Part shown: positions 22,124 through 34,311 of the stretch, piece by piece
Layout: every line of letters starts with the position of its first letter
How positions within the stretch are numbered: position 1 is the stretch's first letter
Origin: a virus
IMG/VR virus record: IMGVR_UViG_3300046170_000103
Coordinates: 1 to 35,139 of that record
Length of the DNA: 35,139 nucleotides
Reading direction: 5' to 3' (one strand)
The notes under the pieces: generated by a model
What the model was told of the DNA's origin: nothing
Seen by the model: the letters and a program-made list of their open reading frames with translations, nothing else
Databases searched by the model: none
Made by a program: the position numbers and the translations under genes

Positions 22124-22187
22124 AAGGATATAGTTTAAATTATTACTAGTGATAACAAAAATATATCGTTAATTATTTAATAAGCAT

Positions 22188-22214: not shown

Positions 22215-22432
22215 TTTTTAGATCCGTTGGTCATAATGCGTAAACAGAAAAAAGATTGCTTAATGTTTGGATAGTAAATTATCTCTATTTTTAATTCCAA
22301 TTCCTAAACCAATAAACAATTGAGCTGCGCCACAATCTAGCCATAATTATTATGCGTCAATGTGTCATGTTATATTTTTAAATTATATCTTTAAGTTACC
22401 CTTATAAGTTAAATTAAACAGTAAAGGAAAAA

Positions 22433-22658
22433 ATGACAAAAAAACTAATAAAAGAAGTAAAGCAAAATAAGACAGATCGAAAAAATAGAAGTTGTTAATG
22501 ATATTGATAAATTATTTTATGATATTGAAAATATTGAAGATCAAGCGACAGTTTTTAGATTAGTTTTAAGACAATTAAATAATTCAACATTGATTGCTTT
22601 AAAAACTTTTATTGAAAATGATTTAAACACTTTAAAAAATTTGAAAGGGGGTAAATAA
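22433..22658 (+). pseudogene. First early gene, small protein broken by a +1 shift
   Basis: ATG at 22433 after AAAGGAAAAA gives MTKKLIKEVKQNKT and then stops at 22496-22498. The frame one base on is open from about 22460 to TAA 22656-22658 with IEKIEVVNDIDKLFYDIENI and then EDQATVFRLVLRQLNNSTLI. Joined at AAGACAGATCG (about 22470-22478), the product is about 74 residues, helical and acidic. The downstream half has no ATG start of its own and its stop overlaps the next start (TAATG). This supports one gene carrying one surplus base. Confidence 0.55.
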
Positions 22659-22831
22659 TGCAAATTAAAGTATCAATTAAAAATGTTTATGGCGTTGAAC
22701 GAATTTATCCAAAATGCAAAATTGCTCAAACATTTTTAGCATTAATGCGAAAAAGAACTTTTGACAGGGAAGAGATCCAGGAAATTAAAACAATGGGATA
22801 TTCTGTCGAAGTTGTTACAGAACAACTGTGA
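22658..22831 (+). CDS. Small conserved-type phage protein (57 aa)
   Basis: MQIKVSIKNVYGVERIYPKC start, then FLALMRKRTFDREEIQEIK and MGYSVEVVTEQL. The plan is a strand, 'YPKC', a helix, 'T...i..Ik.mGy.VEVV'. I recognise this plan from many short phage and prophage proteins of unknown function. The start overlaps the previous stop (TAATG) behind a GGGGG ribosome site. Confidence 0.65.
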   Translation: MQIKVSIKNVYGVERIYPKCKIAQTFLALMRKRTFDREEIQEIKTMGYSVEVVTEQL

Positions 22832-22900
22832 CAATATCGCACATGGAAAAAATAAGACTATCAAAATAATAATAAGGAAACAAAAAAAGGAAAAAAACAA

Positions 22901-23557
22901 ATGATACATATATCTAAAATGACGGGAAAGCTAGAAGGTTTTCAAGCTATATCAACAAACACAACAACAAACGAATATTGCAAAAAACAATATAATAAAC
23001 AAGATCCAAAAAATATTTGTACTTTTTGTTATTCTCACGAAATGTTGAATACATTTAGAAAAAATATGGCGCCTGCATTACAAAGAAATACAGATCTTTT
23101 AAATTCAAAAGTTTTACATCCAGACGCATTGCCTGTAATTAATAGCGCATTTTTTCGTTTCAATGCTCATGGGGAATTAGCATTAGATAAAAAGCAAGCA
23201 ACAATAAATTTAGAAAATTATGTTAATATTGCTTTAAAAAATCCTCATTGTAATTTTAGCCTTTGGACAAAAAGATTTGATGTGATCAAGCCGTTTTTTG
23301 ATACACACCAAAAACCAAAAAATCTAATATTGATTTACTCATCACCATTGACTAATCATATAATGACAAAAACCCCTAAACATTTTGATAAAACTTTCAA
23401 TACAGTTGTTGAAACTGATTTCCAGGATCAACAAAATTGTACGGGTCAAAAATGTAAAGATTGTTTGTTATGCTACAAAAAAGATACAACATCGATCATA
23501 GTTGAAAAAGTTAAAACATACGGAAAAAAGAAATTAAAACAAAAACTAACCAAATAA
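22901..23557 (+). CDS. Gp88-like Cys-rich protein
   Basis: 218 residues. Two Cys clusters: an N-terminal C-x14-C-x2-C (residues ~27-45) and a C-terminal NCTGQKCKDCLLCYKK (C-x5-C-x2-C-x2-C). Between them are FFRFNAHGEL and NPHCNFSLWTKRFDVIKPFF, the strand-helix order of phage proteins annotated as gene product 88-like. The Cys pattern suggests a metal or Fe-S cluster, and a link to radical-SAM-like enzymes has been proposed for such families, but the chemistry is unknown. A ribosome site AAGG precedes an A-rich leader ending CAAATG; the next gene has a nearly identical leader. Confidence 0.65.
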   Translation: MIHISKMTGKLEGFQAISTNTTTNEYCKKQYNKQDPKNICTFCYSHEMLNTFRKNMAPALQRNTDLLNSKVLHPDALPVINSAFFRFNAHGELALDKKQATINLENYVNIALKNPHCNFSLWTKRFDVIKPFFDTHQKPKNLILIYSSPLTNHIMTKTPKHFDKTFNTVVETDFQDQQNCTGQKCKDCLLCYKKDTTSIIVEKVKTYGKKKLKQKLTK

Positions 23558-23575
23558 GGAAAGGAAAAAAAACAA

Positions 23576-23854
23576 ATGGCAACACTTAAGCAATTAGTAA
23601 AAATACAAAGCGCAATTGATAACAGAGCGATTGCGTCAGATACAATGGAAACCCTGGAAAGTAATTATTATTTTTCAAAATCTAAAGGAATTAATATTAA
23701 ATTTGGGGATATGCACATCGACCATTTTTTGCGCTCTTTAAGTTTGGATAAAGAAAAAAAAGACACCAGGGATATTGAGACGGCAAAACTAATATTAAAA
23801 CAAAAAAAAACATTAAAAAAGATAGAAAGGTTATTGGATGAATTGGAAAGATAA
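23576..23854 (+). CDS. Hypothetical early protein (92 aa)
   Basis: 92 residues, charged and helical, with a Lys-rich C-terminus (LILKQKKTLKKIERLLDELE) that could form a coiled coil. No family recognised. It uses the same A-rich leader as the Gp88-like gene and overlaps the next small gene by 17 bases. Probably an early host-interaction protein, by position only. Confidence 0.6.
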   Translation: MATLKQLVKIQSAIDNRAIASDTMETLESNYYFSKSKGINIKFGDMHIDHFLRSLSLDKEKKDTRDIETAKLILKQKKTLKKIERLLDELER

Positions 23855-24005
23855 AAGAATAAAAGAAATTAATCACGATATTTCAGAAACCAAAAAAAAA
23901 TATAATTTCAATTTACATGGATATTATGTTGAAGAATATTCGGATATTATAAACTCAAAAGCAAAAAGTTTTGAAGAGTTTAAAAAAGAAAGGGGGGTTA
24001 TTTGA
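23838..24005 (+). CDS. Hypothetical early protein (55 aa)
   Basis: Starts at ATG 23838 inside the end of the preceding gene and ends at TGA 24003-24005. Sequence is charged and helical: MNWKDKRIKEINHDISETKK, then YYVEEYSDIINSKAKSFEEF, then KKERGVI. No family recognised. The tail ..GVI is encoded by an AGGGGGGTTATT stretch that doubles as ribosome site for the tiny membrane gene that follows. A similar junction follows 24090-24338. Confidence 0.5.
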   Translation: MNWKDKRIKEINHDISETKKKYNFNLHGYYVEEYSDIINSKAKSFEEFKKERGVI

Positions 24006-24073
24006 GTAATACTCAATATTATTTTTCGGTCACAATATTATTTTTAATAATAGTTTTAATTATAACAATCTAG
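24002..24073 (+). CDS. Putative 23-aa single-span membrane peptide (TTG start)
   Basis: TTG at 24002, a few bases after a GGGGGG ribosome site, gives MSNTQYYFSVTILFLIIVLI followed by ITI and TAG. Almost the whole peptide is one hydrophobic helix. The start overlaps the stop of the preceding gene, as elsewhere in this block. Its shortness keeps confidence low, but the membrane character and coupling argue against chance. Confidence 0.35.
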   Translation: MSNTQYYFSVTILFLIIVLIITI

Positions 24074-24089
24074 AAAGGATATAAAAAAA

Positions 24090-24338
24090 ATGAAAAAAAA
24101 ATATTTAGTAAAATTCAATTGTGTCATTGGGGAATATGAGCATTTAGAAACTTATATTTTTGATAAAAAAATGACAGAGTATGGATATTGCAAAAAGTTT
24201 TGGGGTTTATCTAAAAAGAACGAATTAAAAACAAATGTTTTTTGGGATAACTTTATGGAAAATGCGATAGAGGTTTATTCAGAAAGAGAAATAACTCTAA
24301 ATCAATATAAAGAAATTGAAAGATTGGGGGTTATTTAA
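24090..24338 (+). CDS. Hypothetical early protein (82 aa)
   Basis: 82 residues with ATG 15 bases after AAAGGAT. Rich in aromatic and charged residues (YLVKFNCVIGEYEHLETYIF; YGYCKKFWGLSKKNE; NQYKEIERLGVI). No family recognised. It ends with a GGGGG-containing junction, and its TAA overlaps the ATG of the next gene (TAATG). Confidence 0.6.
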   Translation: MKKKYLVKFNCVIGEYEHLETYIFDKKMTEYGYCKKFWGLSKKNELKTNVFWDNFMENAIEVYSEREITLNQYKEIERLGVI

Positions 24339-24709
24339 TGAATAATTTAGAAGTAATACAAGCGATAAAAAACGCAACAAACATACAACCAAAAAAACAA
24401 AAACAGTTTGCTTGCGTTCATTATTTTCATAAGATACCCAACTCAAAAGAGGGTTGGGATTTTATAAAAGCAATAAGAAAATTTGTGAATAAAGATCGTT
24501 ACAAGGTTCGGATATTGGGAAGAGGTTCCAGAAAGGAATACGGCACGCAATCCTTTATTCCATTAAAACACGCAACTAATTATTCAGTTTATATTGATCA
24601 TAAAATTATGGATAGAAATCATCCAGACTTTTTAAGTCGTAAATTTTATGATGTTAGAAGTCAAGTTTATGAATTAAATAATTTTTTAAATCAACCAATT
24701 GGAGAGTAA
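24338..24709 (+). CDS. Hypothetical early protein (123 aa)
   Basis: 123 residues, basic. The centre (KDRYKVRILGRGSRKEYGTQ; PLKHATNYSVYIDHKI) alternates basic and strand-forming residues and might bind nucleic acid, but no motif identifies it. It starts at the TAATG overlap behind a GGGGG ribosome site and stops 7 bases before the methyltransferase ATG. Confidence 0.6.
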   Translation: MNNLEVIQAIKNATNIQPKKQKQFACVHYFHKIPNSKEGWDFIKAIRKFVNKDRYKVRILGRGSRKEYGTQSFIPLKHATNYSVYIDHKIMDRNHPDFLSRKFYDVRSQVYELNNFLNQPIGE

Positions 24710-24716
24710 AAAAAAT

Positions 24717-25334
24717 ATGAAAGTATTAATAGCTTGTGAGTATTCTGGAACTGTCAGAGAAGAGTTTAAAAAACTTGGTCATGACGCCTGGTCATGTGAT
24801 ATTTTGGATACAGAAATTCCAGGAAATCATTTTAAAGGGGATGTGTTAGAGCATTTAAATAAAGATTGGGATTTAATAATTGCTCATCCACCATGTACCT
24901 ATTTATCCAATGCAGGAGCCTGTCGTTTATATCCAGAAAAAGGTAAATTGGATATGGAAAGATACGAAAAAGGGTTGGTAGCAAAGGATTTTTTCATGAA
25001 ATTTTATAATCATAGTTGTACAAAAATTGCTATTGAAAATCCTGTATCTTCTCGGATATTTGAATTACCAAAATATTCCCAGGAAATACAACCATACGAA
25101 TTTGGTCATCCATACACAAAAAAAACTAGATTGTGGTTAAAAGGATTGCCAAAATTAAAACCTACTAACATCATAGATAAATCAGAAGTAAAAACATTTA
25201 TTGAAAGTGGTACTAGTAGATATAAAAATACAAACAAAAATAAAAATAGATATGTTGCAAGAGGTTCTAAAGACAGATCTAAATTTTGGTCTGGGATTGC
25301 TCAAGCAATGGCTCAACAATGGGGTAATGAATAA
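24717..25334 (+). CDS. C5-cytosine DNA methyltransferase-like protein (short form)
   Basis: 205 residues from ATG 24717; an upstream in-frame TTG at 24699 lies within the previous gene and adds nothing conserved. Motif I-like VLIACEYSGTVREEF binds S-adenosylmethionine, followed by the acidic motif WSCDILDTE. Motif IV is AHPPCTYLSN with the catalytic Cys, and motif VI-like is IAIENP. The later RLWL and YVARGSKDRSKFWSGIAQA complete the short phage version, which lacks an obvious target-recognition domain. It may protect phage DNA or modify cytosine. Specificity cannot be read from the sequence. Confidence 0.75.
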   Translation: MKVLIACEYSGTVREEFKKLGHDAWSCDILDTEIPGNHFKGDVLEHLNKDWDLIIAHPPCTYLSNAGACRLYPEKGKLDMERYEKGLVAKDFFMKFYNHSCTKIAIENPVSSRIFELPKYSQEIQPYEFGHPYTKKTRLWLKGLPKLKPTNIIDKSEVKTFIESGTSRYKNTNKNKNRYVARGSKDRSKFWSGIAQAMAQQWGNE

Positions 25335-25483
25335 TGCCAGATCAAACATTAGATGAAATAAGAATAGTACAAGAAATAAATAAAGCTAGAAACCATGAAA
25401 GGAAAAAAAGAGAAAAAGAAATAGAACAGGAAATACAAAAAGAAAACGAAGATTATCTAAAGGAGATACAAAATAAATTATGA
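25334..25483 (+). CDS. Small highly charged helical protein (49 aa)
   Basis: MPDQTLDEIRIVQEINKARN followed by HERKKREKEIEQEIQKENED and YLKEIQNKL: a continuous charged helix, probably coiled-coil. Its ATG overlaps the methyltransferase stop (TAATG) and its TGA overlaps the next ATG (ATGA), so it lies in a chain of coupled genes. Function unknown. Confidence 0.5.
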   Translation: MPDQTLDEIRIVQEINKARNHERKKREKEIEQEIQKENEDYLKEIQNKL

Positions 25484-25641
25484 AACAACAAAATTTAGAA
25501 GAGTTAAAAAAACAAACTCTAATAAATATTTTGAGTGCTAAAGGAATTATTTACACTCACTATAAAAACAAACAACTAAACAATAAGGATAAAAAAAATG
25601 TTAAGCAAATACGAAGCCTGGCTACAAACTGCACAAACTAA
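25480..25641 (+). CDS. Small basic hypothetical protein (53 aa)
   Basis: Starts at the ATGA overlap with the preceding gene: MKQQNLEELKKQTLINILSA, then KGIIYTHYKNKQLNNKDKKN. The last ~15 codons overlap the next gene (start 25598) in another frame. Not recognised. Coupled start supports it moderately. Confidence 0.4.
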   Translation: MKQQNLEELKKQTLINILSAKGIIYTHYKNKQLNNKDKKNVKQIRSLATNCTN

Positions 25642-25828
25642 TGAATCAATAACTTATCATGAGGGTTATCTTGCAAAAGATAGATTTTATGACTACTCCA
25701 TAAGGGATATAGCAAATTTGTTTATGCGTGCTTATGAAAGTAAAAGAGTTGTTTTATTTCAAAAACGATTGGAATATGGAAACATAAATCATGATCCTAA
25801 ATTTCAATACATAGCTAAAAAAATATAG
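25598..25828 (+). CDS. Hypothetical early protein (76 aa)
   Basis: 76 residues: MLSKYEAWLQTAQTNESITY, HEGYLAKDRFYDYSIRDIAN, LFMRAYESKRVVLFQKRL. The 'Y(H)xGxLAxDR...i..iA.l...' arrangement recalls small unnamed proteins seen in other phages, without known role. Its ATG follows AATAAGGAT with an A-run spacer. Confidence 0.55.
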   Translation: MLSKYEAWLQTAQTNESITYHEGYLAKDRFYDYSIRDIANLFMRAYESKRVVLFQKRLEYGNINHDPKFQYIAKKI

Positions 25829-25839
25829 AAAGGAAAACA

Positions 25840-25995
25840 ATGCCAAAGAAAAAAACAACAAAGAAAAAACAACCAAACATTTTAAAAGGTTTAAAAATAG
25901 AAGTTCTTGCAGATAGTAAAAAAGATAAGCATCAATTTCAAAAAGTTTTAAGTCAATTTCTTTTAAAAAAATATCAACAAGGTTATTTTAATTAA
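25840..25995 (+). CDS. Small basic protein ending the early plus block (51 aa)
   Basis: MPKKKTTKKKQPNILKGLKI then EVLADSKKDKHQFQKVLSQF and LLKKYQQGYFN. The Lys-rich N-terminus precedes an amphipathic helix, which may bind nucleic acid. A clear AAAGGAAAAC ribosome site precedes ATG. Its TAA (25993-25995) overlaps the TAA of the convergent small-terminase gene within a palindromic TTAA. Confidence 0.5.
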   Translation: MPKKKTTKKKQPNILKGLKIEVLADSKKDKHQFQKVLSQFLLKKYQQGYFN

Positions 25996-26465
25996 TCTTT
26001 ATTGTCTGGGGGTATATCAGTTATATCCCCAGATACATCAATCAAATCATCAGTATTATCTTCCCAGGATATAGTCATTTTAGTATCAATGTTTTGTTTT
26101 ATAGGTTTATTATCGCTATATAAATCGGATACCTTGCCTGCAATCCATTGGATAAACTTTGTTTTCTCTCGGATAAATAAAATTTCTTGTGGAGATTCAA
26201 TTTCTTGATAGCTAAAAACTTGCAACAGTTTGTCTATTAGAGTTTGGATACCTAATTTTCTTGCTTCAGTTACCTTATGCTCTGCTTCTGGATTTTTTTT
26301 TAAGTAGTGATAAAACTTCGCCAAGCTGTACGGATACTGCTTTTCCTCTAGTATCTCTGTAAGGGTTAAGCCGTTTACCAATTTTTCGCAAATGGTAGAT
26401 AGACTTTCCTTTGTTATCAATTCTTGGTTTGGTTTTTGTGTAATAGTATTCTTTGATTTGGTCAT
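25992..26465 (-). CDS. terS: Terminase small subunit (Sf6-type), separated from terL
   Basis: 157 residues. The pattern STICEKLVNGLTLTEIL, SLAKFYHYLKKNPEAEHKVT, EARKLGIQTLIDKLLQVF, then REKTKFIQWIAGKVSDLYSD corresponds to the Sf6/ubiquitous small-terminase plan: an HTH DNA-binding segment, a Trp/Phe helix of the AxxxGxxxLxDKLL type, and RxxxKxWxAxKxxPxxYGD. It would recognise the pac site and feed terL. It lies 4.2 kb from terL with plus-strand genes between. Its first 191 bases overlap the broken upstream frame. Confidence 0.8.
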   Translation of the reverse strand: MTKSKNTITQKPNQELITKESLSTICEKLVNGLTLTEILEEKQYPYSLAKFYHYLKKNPEAEHKVTEARKLGIQTLIDKLLQVFSYQEIESPQEILFIREKTKFIQWIAGKVSDLYSDNKPIKQNIDTKMTISWEDNTDDLIDVSGDITDIPPDNKD

Positions 26466-26698
26466 CTGTATAGTTCCTAAATTGTATTAGTTTGGATAGT
26501 TGTTTTATTCTTGTTTCATCTGTGTATTTAGCTTTATTAAATTTATCGTAGTTTTGAAATCCATGGTACTTGCACTTGAATAACTTACCACCAGATAATG
26601 GATAACCCTTTCATTCTACAAGGTATTTTCTTACCTTCTCTTAATCCAGCTCTAGTAAAACCCTGGCAAAAAACTTTCTGCTGCGCTCTTCCAGGCAT
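26275..26698 (-). pseudogene. Cys/HG-motif small phage protein, broken by +1 shift
   Basis: ATG 26698 overlaps the stop of the winged-helix gene (TAATG). The frame reads MPGRAQQKVFCQGFTRAG, then KKIPCRMKG, then stops at 26585. Removing one G from GGG (26606-26608) continues as YPLSGGKLFKCKYHGFQNYD and then TRIKQLSKLIQF. The joined C-x(n)-C...GGKLFKCKYHG plan resembles the small phage proteins with 'C..k...G.pC......nGrCk.HGG'. The second frame stays open to 26275, deep inside terS, so dual coding or artefactual extension must be distinguished. Confidence 0.55.
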
Positions 26699-27372
26699 TA
26701 CTTATTTTCCCATGGTTTGATCCCATTTCTTTTATTGTATTCAACTTTCTCTCTGTATCTTGGGTTAGCTTGTTTCTTTATTTTGGACAATGCGCTCAAT
26801 ATTTTATCTGCATTAACATAAGTCGCTTTGCTTTCTCGTTCCTTATCTTCCTTTCGTTGAATTGCTTGCTTACATAAATATACATTAACAGTTTCTGCTT
26901 TTAATTCATCAAGGGGGAGTTTAGATAATTCATCTAATATCTTCTCGGTATCCCCTGCAAAACTCTTAACTATTTTACCTATATTATTAATGGATATTGT
27001 TTCTTCTAATGTAGCCGTAAAACGGCTATCTTGTGTAGGTTTAACGGCTATCTGGGTTGGCTCGTAAAGTTTCTCGGCTCGCAAAAATGTCTCATTAACA
27101 AGATAAGTTTTACCAGATCTACCCCTAACAGACTTAACAATATTTAATTTATTAAGTGTTTCCAGGCACGATTTAATTGTGGTCCGACAAAGACCTGTAT
27201 CCTTATGTATTGTTTCATGCCTTAATCCAGCTTTATAGCCATTTTTTTTCCAGGCATATTTCATTACAGATAAGAATACATTTAAACAATGTGACTTCCT
27301 CTCTCCGTCTACCAGATCTAAATGGTGGTATAGCTTATAAGTTATGTGTAAAAATCCTCTGCTTACATTCAT
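26698..27372 (-). CDS. Winged-helix DNA-binding protein, possible replication initiator or regulator
   Basis: 224 residues. Residues ~45-95 (AGLRHETIHKDTGLCRTTIK, SCLETLNKLNIVKSVRG, RSGKTYLVN) form a winged helix-turn-helix like those in phage replication-initiation proteins and HTH_36-type regulators. The C-terminal half is helical and charged with a conserved-looking basic end (KKQANPRYREKVEYNKRNG). As the genome lacks a polymerase or helicase, this could bind the phage origin or act as a transcription switch. Its ATG overlaps the upstream stop. Confidence 0.65.
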   Translation of the reverse strand: MNVSRGFLHITYKLYHHLDLVDGERKSHCLNVFLSVMKYAWKKNGYKAGLRHETIHKDTGLCRTTIKSCLETLNKLNIVKSVRGRSGKTYLVNETFLRAEKLYEPTQIAVKPTQDSRFTATLEETISINNIGKIVKSFAGDTEKILDELSKLPLDELKAETVNVYLCKQAIQRKEDKERESKATYVNADKILSALSKIKKQANPRYREKVEYNKRNGIKPWENK

Positions 27373-27761
27373 TATTTATCCTTTCTTTTTTTAGATTTAC
27401 ATTTTGGTTTATGGTGGTCGTGCAAGGATCGTAGAATTATGACCCATTCATCTTCACTCATTAGTCTAAACTCTGTCTTACGGCTCTTTATACGCTTGAT
27501 ACGGAAGGTTAGGCTAGTTGGTGTCAATTCTTTATAGAATACTAAAAAACAAGGGATGTTTAAGCGTTCTGCGATGATCTTTGAGAGGGTTGTAGCCTTC
27601 CATTCTTGACCTTTGTCATAACAAGTCTCAATGATAGCTAAAGGTTCGTAACAGTATTGGCAGCACTCGACACTATCAACATCTATATAAGCAATGCCGT
27701 CATATTTTCTGTGCCAATCAGAATACTTTCCATTACTAAAAGCATATACATCACGAGCCAT
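27372..27761 (-). CDS. CxxC protein with nuclease-like acidic arrangement
   Basis: 129 residues. AYIDVDSVECCQYCYEPLAI then IETCYDKGQ, with LSKIIAERLNIPCFLVFYK later. Similar phage proteins have 'D.D.vE.C..C..PLalIE' followed by 'A...A...g.pa..v.Y', which looks like a metal-binding knuckle inserted in a restriction-endonuclease-like fold. That reading is tentative. The C-terminus is basic (HHKPKCKSKKRKDK). It shares its stop with the next ATG. Confidence 0.55.
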   Translation of the reverse strand: MARDVYAFSNGKYSDWHRKYDGIAYIDVDSVECCQYCYEPLAIIETCYDKGQEWKATTLSKIIAERLNIPCFLVFYKELTPTSLTFRIKRIKSRKTEFRLMSEDEWVIILRSLHDHHKPKCKSKKRKDK

Positions 27762-27906
27762 TTTTTAATATCCTTATCTCGTTTTCTTTCTCTTCAATCT
27801 CTTTCTCAAGCGCAAAAATTATATTTTCTTGTTTCTTAATAAATTTCTTGGCTCTTTCTAATTCTTTTTTACAATCAGTTTCTTCAAATATTCCAGAATA
27901 TGTCAT
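27751..27906 (-). CDS. Small coiled-coil protein (51 aa)
   Basis: MTYSGIFEETDCKKELERAK then KFIKKQENIIFALEKEIEEK and ENEIRILKNGS: heptads throughout, so a coiled coil is nearly certain if it is expressed. Its ATG overlaps the TGA of the upstream gene (ATGA), and its end overlaps the following gene by 11 bases. No function known. Confidence 0.5.
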   Translation of the reverse strand: MTYSGIFEETDCKKELERAKKFIKKQENIIFALEKEIEEKENEIRILKNGS

Positions 27907-28163
27907 TTTTCCTTTATAATTTTCTTAACTACAGCTCTAGGATACGCAGTTATATTTCCAATGGATAGTTTATCTTCATCATAAGAAAAAGATGTAAATA
28001 TTTTTACTACTTTAGAATCTTTATAATATAGAAATCCAACATCTTCACACCAGGAGTAACTAAACTTATCAACATCAGATAAATCATCATACCATTGTGA
28101 GCTGCTACAAATATCAACCCAAATTATTCGAACCTTTTTATAAGGTAGTTTTTTTTTAGTCAT
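27903..28163 (-). CDS. Hypothetical protein, first gene of the minus island (86 aa)
   Basis: 86 residues, strand-rich: KVRIIWVDICSSSQWYDDLS, then DVGFLYYKDSKVVKIFTSFS and IGNITAYPRAVVKKIIK. The 'iW.D.....W.......' opening followed by 'G.l......' is common in small phage proteins of unknown role. It starts next to the shared divergent promoter; if that promoter is used, the leader is only a few bases long. Confidence 0.6.
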   Translation of the reverse strand: MTKKKLPYKKVRIIWVDICSSSQWYDDLSDVDKFSYSWCEDVGFLYYKDSKVVKIFTSFSYDEDKLSIGNITAYPRAVVKKIIKEK

Positions 28164-28172
28164 TTTTACTCC

Positions 28173-28223
28173 GTTATATAAATAAAATCTTCCGTTGACA
28201 ACACATATAAATGCCTGTATTAC
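28173..28223. promoter_or_regulatory. Overlapping divergent sigma70-like promoters sharing their -35 bases
   Basis: Plus strand: TTGACA at 28195-28200, 17-base spacer, TATTAC at 28218-28223. Minus strand: TTGTCA at 28201-28196, 17-base spacer, TATAAC at 28178-28173. The two -35 hexamers overlap by five bases. Expected starts lie near 28230 and 28166, giving almost leaderless messages for a plus ATG at 28235 and a minus ATG at 28163. This is by far the best promoter-like arrangement seen in the window. Confidence 0.6.
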
Positions 28224-28234
28224 CTACAAAAAAA

Positions 28235-28549
28235 ATGGAAAACAAAAAAATAGAAAAAGCATTTTCAATATTTAATGGTGGTGAAGGATTAGATCATTGG
28301 TCTTATTCATCTACAAGTACACCCTTTGCAAAAAATATTATTGGTTACAGTTTCCCTCAAGAAGTTAGAAGGAAGTTTCCATTTAGATACAAAGCTAACT
28401 TTGGTAACCTAGTTAATAATGTGGTCCAGAAACAAATTGCAGATGTAATTTACAAATCAAAAACAATTAAAGAAACAGAATGGGATCGAGATTATAAAGT
28501 TTGTTTCGATCAAGAAAAAGAAATTATAAATTCAAAAGCCACCTGTTGA
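28235..28549 (+). CDS. PD-(D/E)XK exonuclease, N-terminal fragment (frameshifted)
   Basis: 104 residues from Met at 28235. The earlier in-frame ATG at 28211 falls between the -35 and -10 of the likely promoter, so 28235 is preferred. Residues such as LDHWSYSSTSTPFAKNIIGY and FPFRYKANFGNLVNNVVQKQ resemble the N-terminus of phage exonucleases of the RecB/lambda-exo-like superfamily. The frame ends ..NSKATC, whereas the +1 frame reads KPPVDAKDKFGREAMIKFAE into the catalytic half. A surplus A in AAAA (about 28535-28538) is the likely cause. Confidence 0.7.
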   Translation: MENKKIEKAFSIFNGGEGLDHWSYSSTSTPFAKNIIGYSFPQEVRRKFPFRYKANFGNLVNNVVQKQIADVIYKSKTIKETEWDRDYKVCFDQEKEIINSKATC

Positions 28550-28577
28550 CGCAAAAGATAAGTTCGGCAGAGAAGCT

Positions 28578-29150
28578 ATGATTAAGTTTGCAGAAGATTG
28601 TATTCCAATCACAAAAAAAGTTGTGCAGCAGATTGTCGAAAAAGAAAAATTAGTTTGTGAAAGATATGTAGAACTAAAAGAGTTTGGTCAAATTAAACCT
28701 ACTATTGGTCGTATCGATTATGAAACTAAAACAAAATTTATAGAACTTAAAACTAAACCACCTAATTTAAGGAAGGTTAAAGGTAAGGAAGAGTGGAATA
28801 TGATCACTCAAGATTTACCTTCAGAGCCTACAATAGAAAACCTTACACAAACTTCGTTCTACTACATGGCAACAAAGAAGATACCTTATCTGGTATATGT
28901 TAATGATAAAGATTTTGTTATCTTTGATAAGAGCCATGAGTTAATGAAGGCAGATCATTTACAACATCTTTATGATGTCATGGTAGATAAAATTCTAACA
29001 TGGGAAAAAATGATTATGTTTTCTGAAGGTAACATCAACAGATTAGCAAGCATGATGGAGCCACCAGATCTTAATCATTTCTTTTATTATAAAGATCTAG
29101 CAGATGAACAAAAACAACTAATAACCAAACTATGGGGAATAAAAATATGA
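28578..29150 (+). CDS. PD-(D/E)XK exonuclease, catalytic C-terminal fragment (frameshifted)
   Basis: 190 residues from an internal Met; the frame is open from about 28540. Catalytic motif: TIGRIDYETKTKFIELKTKP, i.e. Asp47 with Glu56-x-Lys58. A YMATKKIPYLVYVNDKDFVI strand follows. Together with 28235-28549 it gives a nuclease of about 305 residues. It directly precedes an ERF annealing protein (ATGA overlap), a standard partner pair: the exonuclease makes 3' single strands and ERF anneals them. Confidence 0.8.
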   Translation: MIKFAEDCIPITKKVVQQIVEKEKLVCERYVELKEFGQIKPTIGRIDYETKTKFIELKTKPPNLRKVKGKEEWNMITQDLPSEPTIENLTQTSFYYMATKKIPYLVYVNDKDFVIFDKSHELMKADHLQHLYDVMVDKILTWEKMIMFSEGNINRLASMMEPPDLNHFFYYKDLADEQKQLITKLWGIKI

Positions 29151-29836
29151 GTAGTGAAGCTAATGTTTACCAAATAAATAAAAAAAATATGAAAAATATA
29201 TACGAAAAACTTTACAATGCCTGTAATCATGCGAGTGGTGTAAAGAAAGCAAGCAAGGTAAAAGGTATGCCTTTTAATCCTTTATTACATGATGATGTAC
29301 AAAGAGTTGCAATGGCAGCTCTATTAGAAAATAGATTATATGCAACTTGTAACTATGTTACAGACATTACACCTAAATGTGTAATTGTAACCTGTACCAT
29401 GAAGATAACTGACATCGATGATCCAAAAAATTTTATTATAGTTGATGGATGTACTGCGATGGGTGGTCTAGATAAATATGGAACAGGTCAAGCAATGTCA
29501 TACAGTAGAAAGTATGCGTTCCTAAATGCGTTGAATTTAAAAACAGGAATGGATTTAGAAGATGGTTATAACGCAAAACCATTTGAAGAAAATTCTCCAG
29601 AGCAATCTGTAGAAGAACCTACCTACCTTGATGATGAGGTAAATGTAGAAGATATAATAAAAGATATTTCTGACACAACAACTGCAAGACAATTATCTGC
29701 AGTTAAAGATTTGGTTAGAGATCAAGTTATGTATCTTAAAAAAAATAACCTTAAAGCATTCGAGCAAGTTATGAAACATACTCGTGAGCATGAGGTCAAA
29801 CTAAACAATAATAAGCAACAATTTTTAGACGACTAA
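29147..29836 (+). CDS. erf: ERF-family single-strand annealing protein
   Basis: 229 residues from ATG 29147, which overlaps the exonuclease TGA (ATGA). An in-frame ATG at 29132 lies inside the exonuclease gene. The diagnostic ERF core is present: VTCTMKITDIDDPKN, then MGGLDKYGTGQAMSYSRKYA and FLNALNLKTGMDLEDG. The C-terminus is an acidic linker plus charged helix. It should anneal complementary ssDNA for recombination-dependent replication or repair. Confidence 0.88.
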   Translation: MSSEANVYQINKKNMKNIYEKLYNACNHASGVKKASKVKGMPFNPLLHDDVQRVAMAALLENRLYATCNYVTDITPKCVIVTCTMKITDIDDPKNFIIVDGCTAMGGLDKYGTGQAMSYSRKYAFLNALNLKTGMDLEDGYNAKPFEENSPEQSVEEPTYLDDEVNVEDIIKDISDTTTARQLSAVKDLVRDQVMYLKKNNLKAFEQVMKHTREHEVKLNNNKQQFLDD

Positions 29837-29864
29837 TTGTTGTTTATATAACCAAGGAGTAAAC

Positions 29865-30170
29865 ATGGATAATAAATCCGACAAGATATACATTAACCTA
29901 ACCAAGAACCCAGATTGGAAGTCACCAGAAGATAAACTTCCTATATATGTTGGTCCAAAAAATATGAAGCATCCAGATAAGAACTGGACCATTGGAGTAA
30001 ACATTAATGGTAAGTGGTATAACCAGGCTGCCTTTCCGTCTAAAGATCAAGACGGCAAAGTAAAAGCAGGAGAGTTGACTATAATTTTAACACCAAGTGG
30101 AGCAGGTAAGTCTACTAATAATAGCTTTGCAAAAGCAGATGATGGTGGTAATAACGAATATACCTTTTAA
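29865..30170 (+). CDS. Hypothetical protein following ERF (101 aa)
   Basis: 101 residues with a strong AAGGAG ribosome site. Strand-rich: YVGPKNMKHPDKNWTIGVNI, then NGKWYNQAAFPSKDQDGKVK and GELTIILTP, ending in a Gly/Asn-rich tail. Small beta proteins after ERF genes are often ssDNA-binding or recombination accessory proteins, but no OB-fold signature can be claimed. The sequence SGAGKS near the C-terminus is not a plausible P-loop (no beta strand plus helix around it). Confidence 0.6.
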   Translation: MDNKSDKIYINLTKNPDWKSPEDKLPIYVGPKNMKHPDKNWTIGVNINGKWYNQAAFPSKDQDGKVKAGELTIILTPSGAGKSTNNSFAKADDGGNNEYTF

Positions 30171-30188
30171 CTTAGGCTAAAGGGTATC

Positions 30189-30234
30189 AAGCAGGGTGGG
30201 GTTTTTTTCCCTTTCCGTTTTCCCCACCTTGCTT
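30189..30234 (+). terminator. Strong 13-bp hairpin with T-rich loop after the ERF operon
   Basis: AAGCAGGGTGGGG (30189-30201) pairs with CCCCACCTTGCTT (30222-30234), with one G:U pair on the plus strand. The 20-base loop is pyrimidine-rich with a T7 run. It lies 19 bases after the stop of 29865-30170 and 9 bases before the next ATG. There is no U-tract after the stem, so it may act as an RNA stabiliser, processing site or regulated terminator. Confidence 0.5.
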
Positions 30235-30242
30235 ACAAACTT

Positions 30243-30458
30243 ATGACAGATAATATTAAAGAACCAAAACATTATACTCAATACAAGATTGAGCCTATTG
30301 ATTTTATTATTTCTAATAATTTAGATTTTTGTACAGGTAATATAATTAAGTATGTTTTAAGATATAATTTAAAAAATGGTGTTGAAGATCTTAAAAAAGC
30401 TAAACAGTATATAGATTTTTTGATCGAAAAAAAAGTTGAAAAAGGTACAAAAGTATGA
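30243..30458 (+). CDS. DUF3310 family protein (T7 gp1.7 nucleotide kinase-related)
   Basis: 71 residues. The family plan is complete: KEPKHYTQYKIEPIDFIISN, then LDFCTGNIIKYVLRYNLKNG and VEDLKKAKQYIDFLI. DUF3310 includes the nucleotide kinase gp1.7 of T7, although most members are untested. It starts just after the 30189-30234 hairpin and overlaps the next start (ATGA). Confidence 0.85.
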   Translation: MTDNIKEPKHYTQYKIEPIDFIISNNLDFCTGNIIKYVLRYNLKNGVEDLKKAKQYIDFLIEKKVEKGTKV

Positions 30459-30709
30459 CAAAATTTAAAAGAATTATCAATGGAGAGTGTCATTTTCAAA
30501 TGATTGAACTCTTTGATGATGTAGAGAAGGCTGCAAACAACTCGAATAGAGGAGAGTTTGTAGAAGTAAAAATCGATAACTTAAAGTACGATTTTACAAC
30601 AGTAGCAAAGGAGCATGATGGAAAACATCAAGATGCGTCTGCAGAAGCTAAAGGATCTTCAAGCGAAGAAACACGAGAAGTACCTGGAAGCGAAGCTAAA
30701 AGTAAATAA
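30455..30709 (+). CDS. Hypothetical protein (84 aa) with out-of-frame overlap at its C-terminus
   Basis: Starts at the ATGA overlap with the DUF3310 gene. Residues 1-54 look like a compact domain (FKRIINGECHFQMIELFDDV; EFVEVKIDNLKYDFTTV). The last ~30 residues are low complexity (Gly/Ser/Glu/Lys) and are encoded by the same DNA as the coiled-coil gene from 30618. They are therefore likely a by-product of that overlap, or the original stop has been lost. Confidence 0.55.
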   Translation: MTKFKRIINGECHFQMIELFDDVEKAANNSNRGEFVEVKIDNLKYDFTTVAKEHDGKHQDASAEAKGSSSEETREVPGSEAKSK

Positions 30710-30782
30710 GTATCAACAAGATTCTTATAAATTACTTTGGCAAATAGAGCAGACAAAAGAACAGTTGTTATCTTTTAAATAG
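30618..30782 (+). CDS. Small coiled-coil protein (54 aa)
   Basis: MENIKMRLQKLKDLQAKKHE then KYLEAKLKVNKYQQDSYKLL and WQIEQTKEQLLSFK: clean heptad spacing, basic. A GGAG ribosome site stands 4 bases before ATG 30618; a second ATG three bases earlier is too close to it. It overlaps the preceding frame by 92 bases. This frame has the more protein-like composition in the overlap. Confidence 0.55.
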   Translation: MENIKMRLQKLKDLQAKKHEKYLEAKLKVNKYQQDSYKLLWQIEQTKEQLLSFK

Positions 30783-30829
30783 ATAATAACTTATAGTTGA
30801 AAAAAACGAACACAAACTGTAGGGGATCT

Positions 30830-31051
30830 ATGACCATAAATATAAGTCAACACTATAATACACACATTAAAAACTTAAATCAGAATCATTTTATCTACAA
30901 GGTTAAGAAAGCATTTTACCTTCTTACGAACCAGGAAGAAAGATTATATGAGGTAGGGTTCTCGGAAGGATTTCTGTACGCAGCAGAACTAATGCAAAGA
31001 CAACCAATATTAGATAGCAATAATAAAAATGAAAATTGGTATCAAATATAA
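30830..31051 (+). CDS. Hypothetical protein (73 aa)
   Basis: ATG 30830 after AGGGGA is preferred over an upstream in-frame TTG (30797) that has no ribosome site. Residues ~20-62 (FIYKVKKAFYLLTNQEERLY, EVGFSEGFLYAAEL) form two helices like a small four-helix-type domain. No family recognised. It overlaps the DnaA-like gene by 23 bases. Confidence 0.6.
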   Translation: MTINISQHYNTHIKNLNQNHFIYKVKKAFYLLTNQEERLYEVGFSEGFLYAAELMQRQPILDSNNKNENWYQI

Positions 31052-31352
31052 AAACGCAAACATAGAAGTTGTTTCTAAACTTGTAGATAAAGTGTGTGAA
31101 AGATATACTGTTAGCAAGAACGATGTATTCAGTAAAGGTAGAACTTCAGATGTAGTTCGAGCAAGAAGCATTGTCTATAATCTTTTACACGAACAATACA
31201 ATGTAAGTATCTCTTCAATGAGTAGAGTATTTAATCAAGATCATACAACAGTAATTAACTCTCTCCGTAATAAACAGGAGAAGAGAAGATACTGGAACCC
31301 TGGTAATACTATTTGGGAAGAGTATGAAGAGTTAAGAAAAATTACTTTTTAA
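31029..31352 (+). CDS. Stand-alone DnaA domain IV-like DNA-binding protein
   Basis: 107 residues. Residues ~14-82: VVSKLVDKVCERYTVSKNDV, then SDVVRARSIVYNLLHEQYNV and FNQDHTTVINSLRN. This matches the C-terminal domain of bacterial DnaA: the 'a...a..y.v....l.......v..aR.ia.yL' helices, then the DHTTV signature loop that contacts the DnaA box. No AAA+ part is present. It could bind DnaA boxes on phage or host DNA, either to open an origin or to block the host's. It is the last plus-strand gene and its end overlaps the convergent gene by 11 bases. Confidence 0.8.
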   Translation: MKIGIKYKNANIEVVSKLVDKVCERYTVSKNDVFSKGRTSDVVRARSIVYNLLHEQYNVSISSMSRVFNQDHTTVINSLRNKQEKRRYWNPGNTIWEEYEELRKITF

Positions 31353-31503
31353 ATCCAGACTTCATATTCTTGTAAGCCTTCGCAGAGATTGTAGACTTCT
31401 TTTTAGAATTTGAAGTGCCAGCTTTTTTTTTCTTATTGATGTTATAGTAAAGACCCTTCTTTGCGATCTTACCAGTAGCTGTTTTGTGATAACCTTTTTT
31501 CAT
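31342..31503 (-). CDS. Very basic small protein (53 aa)
   Basis: MKKGYHKTATGKIAKKGLYY then NINKKKKAGTSNSKKKSTIS and AKAYKNMKSGFKK. About 20 Lys, no acidic residues. I recognise this type of protein from other marine podoviruses; function unknown, DNA or RNA binding likely. Its ATG lies inside the end of the upstream gene and its stop overlaps the convergent DnaA-like gene. Confidence 0.6.
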   Translation of the reverse strand: MKKGYHKTATGKIAKKGLYYNINKKKKAGTSNSKKKSTISAKAYKNMKSGFKK

Positions 31504-31699
31504 GTTGCTCCTTATGTTGTTTAACTTTTAACTCACAGTAGTTGTCAAAGCAAGAACCTTCTTTACCATCATGACAAAAATATTCTTTCTTATGAGTAAC
31601 TATCCATCCACCTTCATCACTCATTAATTGTTTGTCACACTCTTTGCAATGACCACAAACTAATGATTGAACTTTTGGTTTCTTCCAGGTTTTTTTCAA
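31469..31699 (-). CDS. Small Cys-rich zinc-binding-like protein (76 aa)
   Basis: 76 residues. CGHCKECDKQ near residue 15 and FCHDGKEGSCFDNYC near 42-55 give six to seven Cys plus His, compatible with one or two zinc knuckles. Basic ends. No family name is certain. The last 34 bases overlap the start of the next gene. The start lies one base after the stop of the DUF6321-like gene. Confidence 0.55.
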   Translation of the reverse strand: MKKTWKKPKVQSLVCGHCKECDKQLMSDEGGWIVTHKKEYFCHDGKEGSCFDNYCELKVKQHKEQHEKRLSQNSYW

Positions 31700-31700
31700 A

Positions 31701-31982
31701 CTAACACTTCCATCTTCTTCTAGCTTGTCTTATTCTAGAGTTAGGATCGTTCCTTGTTTTAGCAGAAGATCTTTTAAGTTGACCAAGAGATCTTGCGCAA
31801 TATGATTTTCTTCTTTTAGCTGCCTTTGATCCAGGTTTAACTTTACCTGTTACTGCAGTTTTTAATTTACTACCAGGATTGGCTCTTCGATATGCTCTTA
31901 CACCTTTAGCCGTCATGCCAGCTCCAGACTTTGTTGGTCTGTAGTTTGCGTTCTTACCTTTAGTAGTCTTTCTTATTGCCAT
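31701..31982 (-). CDS. DUF6321-like basic protein
   Basis: 93 residues, extremely basic. Typical phrases: KSGAGMTAKGVRAYRRANPG, SKLKTAVTGKVKPGSKAAKR, RKSYCARSLGQ, ending RIRQARRRWKC. This family is found in many marine and cyanobacterial phages, usually uncharacterised. High Lys/Arg content suggests nucleic-acid binding, perhaps DNA packing in the head or binding to host nucleic acid; that is inference. Confidence 0.8.
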   Translation of the reverse strand: MAIRKTTKGKNANYRPTKSGAGMTAKGVRAYRRANPGSKLKTAVTGKVKPGSKAAKRRKSYCARSLGQLKRSSAKTRNDPNSRIRQARRRWKC

Positions 31983-31984
31983 AA

Positions 31985-32173
31985 TTACCTGCTGCTTAAT
32001 CTATCCATGTGATTATATATTCTACCTATCTGTTTATCAACAGACATTATTTCTTCAGTAAGCATACCAATATGAACTTGTAATTCTACAATAGTCATCA
32101 ATACATAAGTAGATAATCCTAAAAGGATTGTACCTAATAAACCTATTAACATTGTATTGTGTTGTCGTTTCAT
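31985..32173 (-). CDS. Single-span membrane protein with coiled tail, spanin- or holin-accessory-like
   Basis: 62 residues: basic MKRQHNTM start, membrane helix residues ~8-30 (LIGLLGTILLGLSTYVLMTI), then a periplasm-type helix (HIGMLTEEIMSVDKQIGRIY). N-terminal anchor plus helical tail resembles an inner-membrane spanin, but it is short. Its ATG overlaps the TGA of the upstream gene (ATGA). Confidence 0.6.
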   Translation of the reverse strand: MKRQHNTMLIGLLGTILLGLSTYVLMTIVELQVHIGMLTEEIMSVDKQIGRIYNHMDRLSSR

Positions 32174-32334
32174 TTTGCAATCTTACCTTTGTTAATTCCT
32201 TTTTTAATTACATAATCTTTAGTACCATTAGCACCATGATTTACTTCTTTCTTTAACAACTTAAATAGATCCATCTCTTTTAAATTTTTTTCTATTTTCT
32301 TTTTAAAAGATTCTAATACTTTAGTGTCTCTCAT
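32170..32334 (-). CDS. Small basic protein (54 aa)
   Basis: MRDTKVLESFKKKIEKNLKE then MDLFKLLKKEVNHGANGTKD and YVIKKGINKGKIAK. A charged helix followed by a basic tail. Both ends use four-base ATGA overlaps with neighbours, which is good support for translation. Function unknown. Confidence 0.55.
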   Translation of the reverse strand: MRDTKVLESFKKKIEKNLKEMDLFKLLKKEVNHGANGTKDYVIKKGINKGKIAK

Positions 32335-32471
32335 TTTCTTTTTCTTTTTTTATTTAATAGATTAACTCTTGAATGCCATAACCATGTAGTAAACTTTATA
32401 GAATAAGTCTCAAGCCATGAAAATAAATTATCTAAACCACCAAAAAATTTTAATAAGAATTTATCGATCAT
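32331..32471 (-). CDS. Small aromatic/basic protein (46 aa)
   Basis: MIDKFLLKFFGGLDNLFSWL then ETYSIKFTTWLWHSRVNLLN and a KKRKRK end. An amphipathic, Phe/Trp-rich helix that may lie on the membrane, with a positive tail. Start overlaps the upstream TGA and its own TGA overlaps the next ATG. No family recognised. Confidence 0.5.
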   Translation of the reverse strand: MIDKFLLKFFGGLDNLFSWLETYSIKFTTWLWHSRVNLLNKKRKRK

Positions 32472-32605
32472 CTTCCTTGACCCTTGTATCTTGTAAGTTT
32501 CTGTTGTCTTTTTTCATTTTTATTTTTAGACTTCTTATGCGCTCCTGGTCCACGCTTCTTTGGTTTATCTCTAGGTATAAAATGTGTAAACTTTTGTTTT
32601 GCCAT
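32468..32605 (-). CDS. Very basic small protein (45 aa)
   Basis: MAKQKFTHFIPRDKPKKRGP then GAHKKSKNKNEKRQQKLTRY and KGQGR. The 'F......P..kKRGpG.HKK..NK.EKR......YkGQGR' plan recurs in marine podoviruses beside the holin-like genes. Role unknown; likely nucleic-acid binding. It couples to the downstream gene by ATGA. Confidence 0.6.
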   Translation of the reverse strand: MAKQKFTHFIPRDKPKKRGPGAHKKSKNKNEKRQQKLTRYKGQGR

Positions 32606-32617
32606 TATCTTTTCTTC

Positions 32618-32722
32618 TTATATTTCTTTTTCTTTTTCTTTCTTACCTGTTTGCTGCGCAAGTAAAGTAGGTTTCTTTCTACTATACTGCGATACAAACA
32701 TTGTTGGTGCTTCGTTACTCAT
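32618..32722 (-). CDS. Tiny hypothetical protein (34 aa)
   Basis: MSNEAPTMFVSQYSRKKPTL then LAQQTGKKEKEKEI. The start lies one base after the holin-like gene stop, and a 12-base gap precedes the next gene. Short but flanked by coupled genes in the same direction. Not recognised. Confidence 0.4.
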   Translation of the reverse strand: MSNEAPTMFVSQYSRKKPTLLAQQTGKKEKEKEI

Positions 32723-32723
32723 A

Positions 32724-33155
32724 TTATTTCTTTACTAAAGATCCACCAAAATACAATCCAATTATTGCAGAAACTAAATTAGTATCTAATGGTGTGATTA
32801 CAAAACTGTTAGACGATAATGTTATCCATTTCATAACTTCTTTTTCTGGTATAAAAAAGAATGAAGGTTTGAACTCTAGATAACCTACAATAACACTAGT
32901 GTCTGGTGATATTATTGGCATTAATTTTGGCAGCAAGACTATCGCAAAGACAGCAGTTAATGCTATAATTCTTCTGGTCCATTGGAAACCTTTGTTCTCA
33001 TATTCTCTTGCTTCTTTAAAACCTTTTTGTTGAACTTCAGCTCTTTGTATAAGCATCTTTTGTTCTTCTCTTTTTGCTTTTATACTTTGTGACCAGATAC
33101 TCATTACTCCACCGAGTACAGTAGAACCTAGCATTGTTATCATTTCAAATGGCAT
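32724..33155 (-). CDS. Holin candidate, 3-TM GTA-holin-like membrane protein
   Basis: 143 residues. Hydrophobic segments at ~5-20 (ITMLGSTVLGGVMSIW), ~61-84 (RRIIALTAVFAIVLLPKLMP) and ~122-140 (SAIIGLYFGGSLV), with a basic helical stretch between the first two. The FQWTRRIIAL motif before TM2 is typical of the '3TM holin' family described from gene-transfer agents. Expected to open the inner membrane at lysis. It lies in the group of membrane and secreted proteins after the tail genes. Confidence 0.65.
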   Translation of the reverse strand: MPFEMITMLGSTVLGGVMSIWSQSIKAKREEQKMLIQRAEVQQKGFKEAREYENKGFQWTRRIIALTAVFAIVLLPKLMPIISPDTSVIVGYLEFKPSFFFIPEKEVMKWITLSSNSFVITPLDTNLVSAIIGLYFGGSLVKK

Positions 33156-33163
33156 TGTTTCTC

Positions 33164-33466
33164 CTATTCATATATTATTTTTACTTTTAATTTCTTTTGT
33201 TCTTTAGTTGCTCCTCTAGATATAAAGGATCCTTTAAGATTTCTTTTATATCCATCTGGCGCAGTATAACTGTCAACCTTTCTATAATTTTTAGCCTTAA
33301 CATCATAAGCATTATACTCACCTGTAGTCATATTTAAAGTAACAATGTCTATTGGTCCAAGACCACCCAGGGGTGTAAACACTAGTATATTAGGATCTTT
33401 TGCAAGACGAAGTTGAGCAGTAAGTTCTGTAGTTAAGCCAACTATAGCTTTTTTTCTTCTAGCCAT
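33164..33466 (-). CDS. PD-(D/E)XK nuclease-like small protein
   Basis: 100 residues. GLGPIDIVTLNMTTGEYNAY then DVKAKNYRKV: Asp40 in the first strand and Asp55-x-Lys57 after a turn, the active-site plan of PD-(D/E)XK enzymes including Holliday-junction resolvases. The N-terminus is basic. Odd place for a nuclease, within the lysis-like group; it may resolve concatemers late in infection. It overlaps the upstream gene by 8 bases. Confidence 0.55.
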   Translation of the reverse strand: MARRKKAIVGLTTELTAQLRLAKDPNILVFTPLGGLGPIDIVTLNMTTGEYNAYDVKAKNYRKVDSYTAPDGYKRNLKGSFISRGATKEQKKLKVKIIYE

Positions 33467-33704
33467 TATATTTGATGTAGCCTAGCAAGGAAGCTATCGC
33501 ACCACCAATTAGCAGCAGAACTCTAAAACCACCCTTACTTTTATTAACATCACTTTTTAATTCTTTTATATCTGTACGCATTTCATCAATAGCTTTAAAT
33601 AAAGTTTTCATTCTTTCTGCGCAAACTTTTTCGTGGTAAGATATTCTTATAGAGTTGTTATCTTCTATATTTTGTTTTAAAGTTTTTTTTTTACGCACCA
33701 TCAC
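33459..33704 (-). CDS. Tail-anchored coiled-coil membrane protein, XhlA-like
   Basis: 81 residues. Basic start (MMVRKKKTL), long coiled coil (EKVCAERMKTLFKAIDEMRT, DIKELKSDV) and a single C-terminal membrane helix (FRVLLLIGGAIASLLGYIKY). This is the layout of hemolysin XhlA-like lysis accessory proteins. It overlaps both neighbours by several bases. The lysis role is inferred from structure and position next to the 3-TM protein. Confidence 0.6.
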   Translation of the reverse strand: MMVRKKKTLKQNIEDNNSIRISYHEKVCAERMKTLFKAIDEMRTDIKELKSDVNKSKGGFRVLLLIGGAIASLLGYIKYNG

Positions 33705-33903
33705 CTACCTTGTTACAAAAATAAGTAACATATAATTCTTCTTCGTTAAATCTTTCAGAGTTATAATTGATAACTTCTACAGTTGCTAATGCTCCTGCTT
33801 TATTACAATCACTCCATGTATAAAATTCCATGGGTGACATTGTAGGTGTGTTACACATTCCTGTCATAGCCGAACAGATAGTATAAGCTAAAACAAATTT
33901 CAT
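33691..33903 (-). CDS. Small secreted Cys-containing protein (70 aa)
   Basis: 70 residues: hydrophobic N-terminus MKFVLAYTICSAMTGMC, then TMSPMEFYTWSDCNKAGALA and YVTYFCNKVGDGA. Four Cys and a signal-like start suggest export and disulfides. Similar 'MKFVL.Y..Cs...g.C......F..W.eC' proteins occur in marine podoviruses near lysis genes. Its ATG directly follows the stop of the tail-like gene (TAAATG). Confidence 0.55.
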   Translation of the reverse strand: MKFVLAYTICSAMTGMCNTPTMSPMEFYTWSDCNKAGALATVEVINYNSERFNEEELYVTYFCNKVGDGA

Positions 33904-34311
33904 TTATCTAGCCGTACATGGTACATTGTTAGTTCCAACTAGGGGTGCTTCTGCAAAACACATATAAATGTATGATTCACCAGATTGATTTAAACCTGCA
34001 TCAGTTCCTCTTAATTTAAAACCATTACTTAAAATATCTGTTGCAAAAGCTGATGCTTTATTTTCTGCATTAGAATTATTAGCTGATGGGTGTTGTGTTT
34101 GATTAGGGTTCATTTGACCAAAATTTTGTAAAGCTGCTGTACCACTTCTTTTATTATCTTTCATATACCAATTATCAGTATTACTAGTTCTTTTTATCAT
34201 AACAAAAGCAGGTTTAAATCCTGTATAAATAAATGTTCCATCATTATTTCCATTCCCTGTGTAGCTTCCAAACTTTGCTATAACCTGTTTTTTCTGAGAA
34301 GCAGTAGGCAA
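33904..34311 (-). CDS. Repeat-rich tail/surface protein, C-terminal fragment (frameshifted)
   Basis: The true continuation starts near 34264 as KFGSYTGNGNNDGTFIYTGF, then KPAFVMIKRTSNTDNWYMKD, ending YIYMCFAEAPLVGTNNVPCT-AR. The printed ATG (34311) and its first ~15 residues are an out-of-frame lead-in. This ending is typical of C-terminal domains of marine phage fibre-like proteins. It belongs to the 34244-34978 gene; one surplus A in AAAG at about 34266 splits them. Confidence 0.75.
   Translation of the reverse strand: MPTASQKKQVIAKFGSYTGNGNNDGTFIYTGFKPAFVMIKRTSNTDNWYMKDNKRSGTAALQNFGQMNPNQTQHPSANNSNAENKASAFATDILSNGFKLRGTDAGLNQSGESYIYMCFAEAPLVGTNNVPCTAR

Follow-up and report, generated by a model that had tools for sequence, protein, structure and literature searches.

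A DnaA domain IV protein of HTVC010P-type pelagiphages and its candidate binding site near the late genes

What use would a phage have for the DNA-binding domain of DnaA without the rest of the bacterial initiator? The question arises from an ORF of 107 amino acids that starts with ATG and occupies the plus strand at 31029-31352 of a viral sequence of 35139 bases (record IMGVR_UViG_3300046170_000103), called the window below. A preliminary description read this ORF as a free-standing DnaA domain IV in a phage genome without replication enzymes. I find instead that it almost certainly encodes one half, domain IV, of a phage protein that has two domains and is about 173 amino acids long (Table 1).

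With window positions 20001-34000 as the query, megablast matched 24 phage records, every one of them a Pelagibacter phage, and the best match was HTVC024P (90% over 63% of the query). Judged by sequence comparison, the window is an HTVC010P-type pelagiphage; these phages are the second most abundant known pelagiphage group according to the available part of PMC12753301. A late protein of its relatives matches window positions 1168-110 and continues at 35136-34981. Since this one protein spans both window ends, the record seems to be circular or permuted, with its ends joining.

Table 1. Coordinates of the features discussed in the text, in window positions
Feature	Position	Strand	Basis
Small conserved gene, 63 aa, adjoining terL; first of the leftward late genes	21755-21946	-	Alignment of 11 phages
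DnaA-box-like 9-mer TTATACACA, candidate binding site	21993-22001	-	Begins 55 nt before the start of the first late gene
Conserved AT-rich block CATGTATATATATG, close to the box	22036-22049	.	Alignments of 11 phages and of 27 non-redundant sequences
Replication-initiator-like (lambda O / DnaD-like) winged-helix protein	26698-27372	-	PHROG matches of homologues
Erf-type single-strand annealing protein, same gene cassette	29132-29836	+	PF04404 E 3.4e-7; phrog_155 E 8.2e-12
Ribosome-binding-type leader GTAGGGGATCT, directly before the ATG at 30830	30819-30829	+	Same or near copy in 11 phages
N-terminal half, residues 1-66, helical in the model	30830-31027	+	Frame of the upstream ORF; 98% to HTVC024P gp26
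Frameshift point, one base more than relatives, A-rich stretch	31023-31033	+	Comparison with relatives and isolate proteins
C-terminal half, DnaA domain IV	31029-31352	+	PF08299 E 5.4e-15; fold match to 1J1V
Eight further frameshift points	4525; 5651-5660; 6528-6549; 11119-11125; 11210-11216; 26597-26606; 28531-28543; 34274		At least two supports each

The two halves of the protein

Pfam family PF08299 (Bac_DnaA_C) matches residues 17-80 of the 107-amino-acid ORF with E 5.4e-15 and 55.6 bits, the gathering score being 31.5, and no further Pfam family matches it at E<=0.01. The DHTTV motif noted at the outset is present. The structure was predicted with AlphaFold2 and 45 relatives for L002, a relative with an intact gene that is identical to the window over the 107 amino acids. 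The model has a mean pLDDT of 81.1 and a pTM of 0.60; in blocks of ten residues, pLDDT lies between 85 and 94 in domain IV (69 for the last residues) and between 53 and 81 in the first 70 residues. Its residues 79-173 fit E. coli DnaA domain IV on a DnaA box (1J1V) with a Z of 12.6 and an rmsd of 2.0, a common fold over 92 aligned residues. VIA-align gave the same Z for 3PVP and placed the first non-DnaA row at 5.4, Foldseek returned 1J1V as its top PDB match (E 1.0e-3, TM by target 0.79), and a sequence-profile search matched 1J1V at 1.4e-9. The Pfam match and the predicted structure thus agree with the original assignment to DnaA domain IV without the ATPase part: in the intact 173-amino-acid relative PF08299 alone was above its Pfam cut-off, the AAA+ ATPase domain III being absent. 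Compared with E. coli DnaA, the phage protein lacks the AAA+ domain and possesses an additional helical N-terminal half.

The available part of PMC7561715 lists six base-contact residues of DnaA (R399, P423, D433, H434, T435 and H439). Four of these six, R399, D433, H434 and T435, are retained in the phage domain; in the alignment P423 is replaced by S and H439 by N in the window type, the latter position being H in several relatives. Among 46 relatives, the equivalents of R399, D433 and H434 are invariant and that of T435 is kept at 90% or more. The loop preceding DHTT is one residue shorter in the phage domain than in E. coli DnaA. A second copy of the domain was also sought in SAR11, where 125 of the 147 genomes searched had one match and none had two.

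The N-terminal half of the protein is encoded in the window within another ORF (30797-31051), in a different frame from 31029-31352. Taken alone, this upstream ORF has no Pfam or PHROG match at E<=1, and the full protein matches DUF7046 over residues 20-128 with an E of 0.02, under the cut-off of that family. Phycobilisome-subunit rows returned for the N-half by VIA-align, at a Z of about 4, were not accepted as kinship.

Sequence identities indicate that the N-half and the C-half have different histories. The Skadi1 protein is 82% identical to the window type over residues 1-66 and 35% identical over the remainder, and compared with HTVC203P the corresponding figures are 34% and 82%. These different identities point to a probable exchange of the N-half at the linker. 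The Skadi1 gene itself (L045, 8797-9306) carries a window-type N-half and an HTVC203P-type C-half. Across the genome, HTVC203P is the best match of Skadi1 in 16 of the 24 pieces compared, and it is also the best match in the gap that precedes the late genes; the N-half plus seven other pieces side with phages other than HTVC203P. A coupling of C-half type with gap sequence, for which Skadi1 served as the test case, was rejected because its similarity to HTVC203P reflects shared descent.

One gene split by an extra base

In HTVC010P-type pelagiphages, GenBank already annotates this protein as DnaA-like or Bac_DnaA_C. HTVC024P gp26 (QPZ53346.1), labelled 'DNA replication initiation (DnaA)', is the same gene in the same place as the window gene; residues 1-66 of gp26 are 98% identical to the N-half of the window, and the comparison of gp26 with the intact window-type L002 gives 98% identity in the N-half and 90% in the C-half. 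Greip gp42, Skadi1_28 and Lederberg_50 are further orthologues in HTVC010P-type phages. All of these are one intact ORF, whereas the window has two. DnaA is listed among the proteins of all HTVC010P-related genomes in the available part of PMC6811365, and in that of PMC6813254 Bac_DnaA_C is named only as a search model. Proteins annotated 'Chromosomal replication initiator, DnaA C-terminal' from uncultured Caudovirales phages in BFVD, together with phrog_27829, are likewise domain IV without ATPase, but their lengths and flanking parts differ from those of the window protein. The many phage proteins of this type in BFVD make domain IV without ATPase a known kind in phages. By sequence search at E<=0.01, the window protein matched only Pelagibacter phages and, weakly, four human-faecal phage contigs.

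The earlier view of the domain as free-standing is contradicted by its relatives. In all 32 close viral loci (L002-L033, of which L029 reaches its contig end), domain IV is the C-terminal half of one ORF of about 173 amino acids, and the same single-ORF form was found in all ten isolates examined from the 19 Pelagibacter phage records matched by the search. In the related loci the ORF starts with MTINIS or similar and has the domain at its end. Of 171 viral loci, 163 are uncut by a contig end, and these comprise 161 with the two-part protein, two with a different longer protein and none with the short form, counts that are biased toward full-length hits because some of the loci came from full-length queries (34 loci were retrieved with the 107 amino acids alone as query). 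A different viral protein, 195 amino acids long from the start codon taken, has DnaA_C in mid-protein with other flanking parts (L034:3705-4289 and L035:9836-10420).

Compared with its relatives, the window contains one extra base at about 31024-31030, in an A-rich stretch. To the left of this base the window agrees with L005 and L006 (their T) and to the right with L002-L004 (their ATG), which gives the impression of two strain types joined at this place. The gene is intact in L006, which shares 99.6% identity with the window over 5.6 kb. The free-standing look thus results from one extra base halving a normal two-part gene, and the free-standing form is either artefactual or that of a rare mutant. 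The one-base indel is probably a sequencing or assembly error, and the sequence would also permit a natural mutant at the split point. Programmed frameshifting at the A run was rejected, as the relatives read through in frame and the sequence there is varied.

Could the split nevertheless be real? This lineage would then translate only domain IV, beginning at the ATG at 31029, and other environmental phages may do likewise with their DnaA_C proteins. BFVD does contain many viral DnaA C-terminal proteins, some of only 92-110 amino acids, and an in-frame ATG is found at the boundary in L002, L003, L004 and L007. However, besides the want of any short form among the 163 contained loci, the leader at 30819-30829 is conserved, with GTAGGGGATCTATG or a near copy ahead of the full-length start in all 11 phages compared, whereas no ribosome-binding-type leader was seen before 31029 in the window sequence. 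The same record also has eight further supported frameshifts, and I regard a real split as very improbable.

Those frameshifts emerged from a comparison of isolate proteins with the window in which points were counted by their number of supports. Nine points have at least two supports (about 4525, 5655, 6540, 11122, 11213, 26600, 28535, 31020 and 34274) and four have one, while the same test on the ten isolates gave no point with at least two supports in nine of them and four in HTVC010P. An indel-rich record is the simplest reading of the many splits. Homopolymers were considered as the cause and set aside; runs lie near most points but also in a quarter of random 30-base stretches. The genes split at the other window points include the tail fibre, internal virion proteins, a methylase-like gene and a nuclease. 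In HTVC010P (L041), the supported points lie at about 14543, 16292, 24592 and 28059 and may affect annotations built on that genome. With nine supported frameshifts in the record, split or free-standing genes there should not be taken for biology without checking relatives.

Replication genes and a box upstream of the late genes

That the genome is devoid of replication functions is not supported, since an O-like initiator and an Erf-type annealing protein are both present. As for the narrower claim that polymerase, helicase and primase are missing, none of the three appears among the families matched by the ten window proteins scanned, but the replication-initiator-like gene at 26698-27372 qualifies it. 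Of 11 homologues of that protein, all match phrog_270 ('replication initiation protein'; best value 1.5e-7) and ten match phrog_678 ('replication initiation O-like'). The member encoded in the window scores weakly (E 0.0083 and 0.0032, respectively), its label in relatives is 'putative transcriptional regulator', its Pfam matches are mainly to HTH families, and no solved relative was found by sequence at E<=1. Section 7 of PMC10504331 reports that Skadi encodes a lambda-like helicase loader, lacks a DNA polymerase of its own and relies on that of the host. None of the ten isolates carries an RNA polymerase annotation. The DnaA-like gene stands at the end of the rightward nuclease-Erf cassette in the window as in HTVC010P-type relatives, and in the ten isolates it is the last gene of its rightward run. 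Nearby, 30243-30458 encodes a DUF3310 protein alone; 9 of the 25 PHROG families shown with a match to it carry a kinase label.

The preliminary description had proposed the gap at 21947-22432 as DNA for a binding assay, and a conserved DnaA-box-like site is indeed found there. The exact TTATNCACA occurs in this gap, the main intergenic region, upstream of the small gene that adjoins terL, in six of 11 phages (the window, HTVC024P, HTVC204P, HTVC010P, HTVC034P and HTVC203P). At the same position Greip, HTVC100P and Skadi1 have TTATACAAA, and Lederberg and HTVC035P have TTATCAACA; the matching 9-mer of HTVC035P is close to the AT-rich block and so may be a different element.

A wider sample of 80 loci around the small gene (the best 80 of 344), together with the isolates, provided 27 non-redundant upstream sequences. 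Between -78 and -46 relative to the start of the late gene, and on the same strand as that gene, TTATNCACA is exact in 11 of the 27 and within one mismatch in 23, counts that, like all such box counts, are inflated by the relatedness of the sequences. Shuffles gave means of 0.29 exact and 2.8 within one mismatch, with maxima of 2 and 7. Among 560 permuted motifs TTATNCACA ranked first, but other permuted motifs reached 20 and 17 of the 27; as the sequences are also related, part of the box signal is shared descent. The box starts at -67 in 16 sequences and at -55 to -58 in the other 11, about one helical turn between them, and no more than a handful of old indels may account for these two spacings. 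The final bases of the box differ from sequence to sequence. From the box to the AT-rich block the distance ranges from 8 to 78 in the 26 sequences that have the block.

The gap contains one exact TTATNCACA and the whole window three, and a DnaA-box cluster is absent. None of the 11 phages has an exact box in its early control region or in the leader of its DnaA-like gene; with one mismatch allowed, boxes appear in four of the early control regions and in one of the leaders. A genome-wide scan, which had also been proposed, gave no enrichment of DnaA boxes across the 11 phages. Summed over these genomes, TTWTNCACA was observed 42 times compared with about 84 in shuffled sequence and 76 under a Markov model, and TTATNCACA 18 times against 27.5 expected. 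Since the latter ranks 141 of 560 permuted motifs, the low box count signifies no enrichment rather than proven avoidance. An apparent excess of boxes in SAR11 (122 against 45, in 120 loci around 16S) is unusable, the loci being homologous to each other. A search for iterons in the gap, the O-like gene and the DnaA-like gene leader recovered only short two- or three-copy repeats, and a promoter consensus scan of the region upstream of the late genes found 8 promoter-like sites against 7.4 in shuffles. Elsewhere in the gap, a 14-base block, ACTANATNTRGTAT (21947-21960, minus strand), abuts the start codon of the small gene and is strongly conserved in the 27 sequences. It has no ribosome-binding-type sequence and may serve as an operator or as part of a promoter for a leaderless transcript.

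Possible roles of the protein

The protein probably binds the candidate site at 21993-22001. To what end? I favour control of the late operon, with a probability of about 0.38, over a function at the origin, and a function at the origin over occupation of host boxes. The protein, produced from the last early gene, would bind the single box that lies 55-67 nt ahead of the first late gene; bound there, it would regulate a late operon transcribed by the host RNA polymerase, while its N-half would contact a partner. Late-operon control is preferred because the spacing between the box and the first late gene is maintained and because the gene for the protein comes last among the rightward early genes. 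In some phages late regulators, such as lambda Q, are encoded at the end of the early genes. Counting against this reading are the lack of TTATNCACA enrichment in whole genomes, a promoter scan hardly above the shuffles, the one-mismatch boxes in some early control regions and one leader, the varying end of the box and the replacement of P423 and H439. The fuller proposal, a DnaA DNA-binding domain turned into a late-gene switch that works from a single box at helically phased distances and with an N-half exchangeable between phages independently, is speculative and, taken as a whole, rather unlikely.

Alternatively, the protein may be an accessory that binds the box near the AT-rich block, this being the origin, and together with the O-like protein recruits the host helicase and polymerase. 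This suggestion, which I consider tentative, is consistent with the replication labels that GenBank places on the relatives' proteins, with an O-like initiator in the same genome, with the AT-rich CATGTATATATAT block conserved near the box in most sequences, and with the helicase loader and dependence on host DNA polymerase described for Skadi in that section of PMC10504331. The cumulative GC-skew minimum of the window also falls at 21-22 kb, beside the gap, but the direction of the genes switches near the same place and that turn would also give it. A domain IV protein without ATPase is able to bind boxes and unable alone to open DNA. Thus the lack of an ATPase domain argues against an origin, as does a single box in a region with neither cluster nor iterons. 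Furthermore, the distance from the box to the AT-rich block is not kept, whereas that to the late gene start is.

A third reading, and a distinctly improbable one, is that the protein would sit on the DnaA boxes of the SAR11 oriC and so prevent the host from initiating. The R, D, H and T residues from the available list of contacts (PMC7561715) are common to host and phage domain IV, so overlapping host and phage sites are plausible, but identity to the host domain IV is only about 31% in a rough global alignment and the phage itself contains a conserved candidate target.

Two results of this analysis, the conserved box close to the late genes and the exchange of domains, were not found in the literature examined. 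That literature likewise does not show how HTVC010P-type phages start replication or switch on their late genes without polymerases of their own. For that question, the DnaA-box-like site near the late-gene start offers one protein and one 9-mer.
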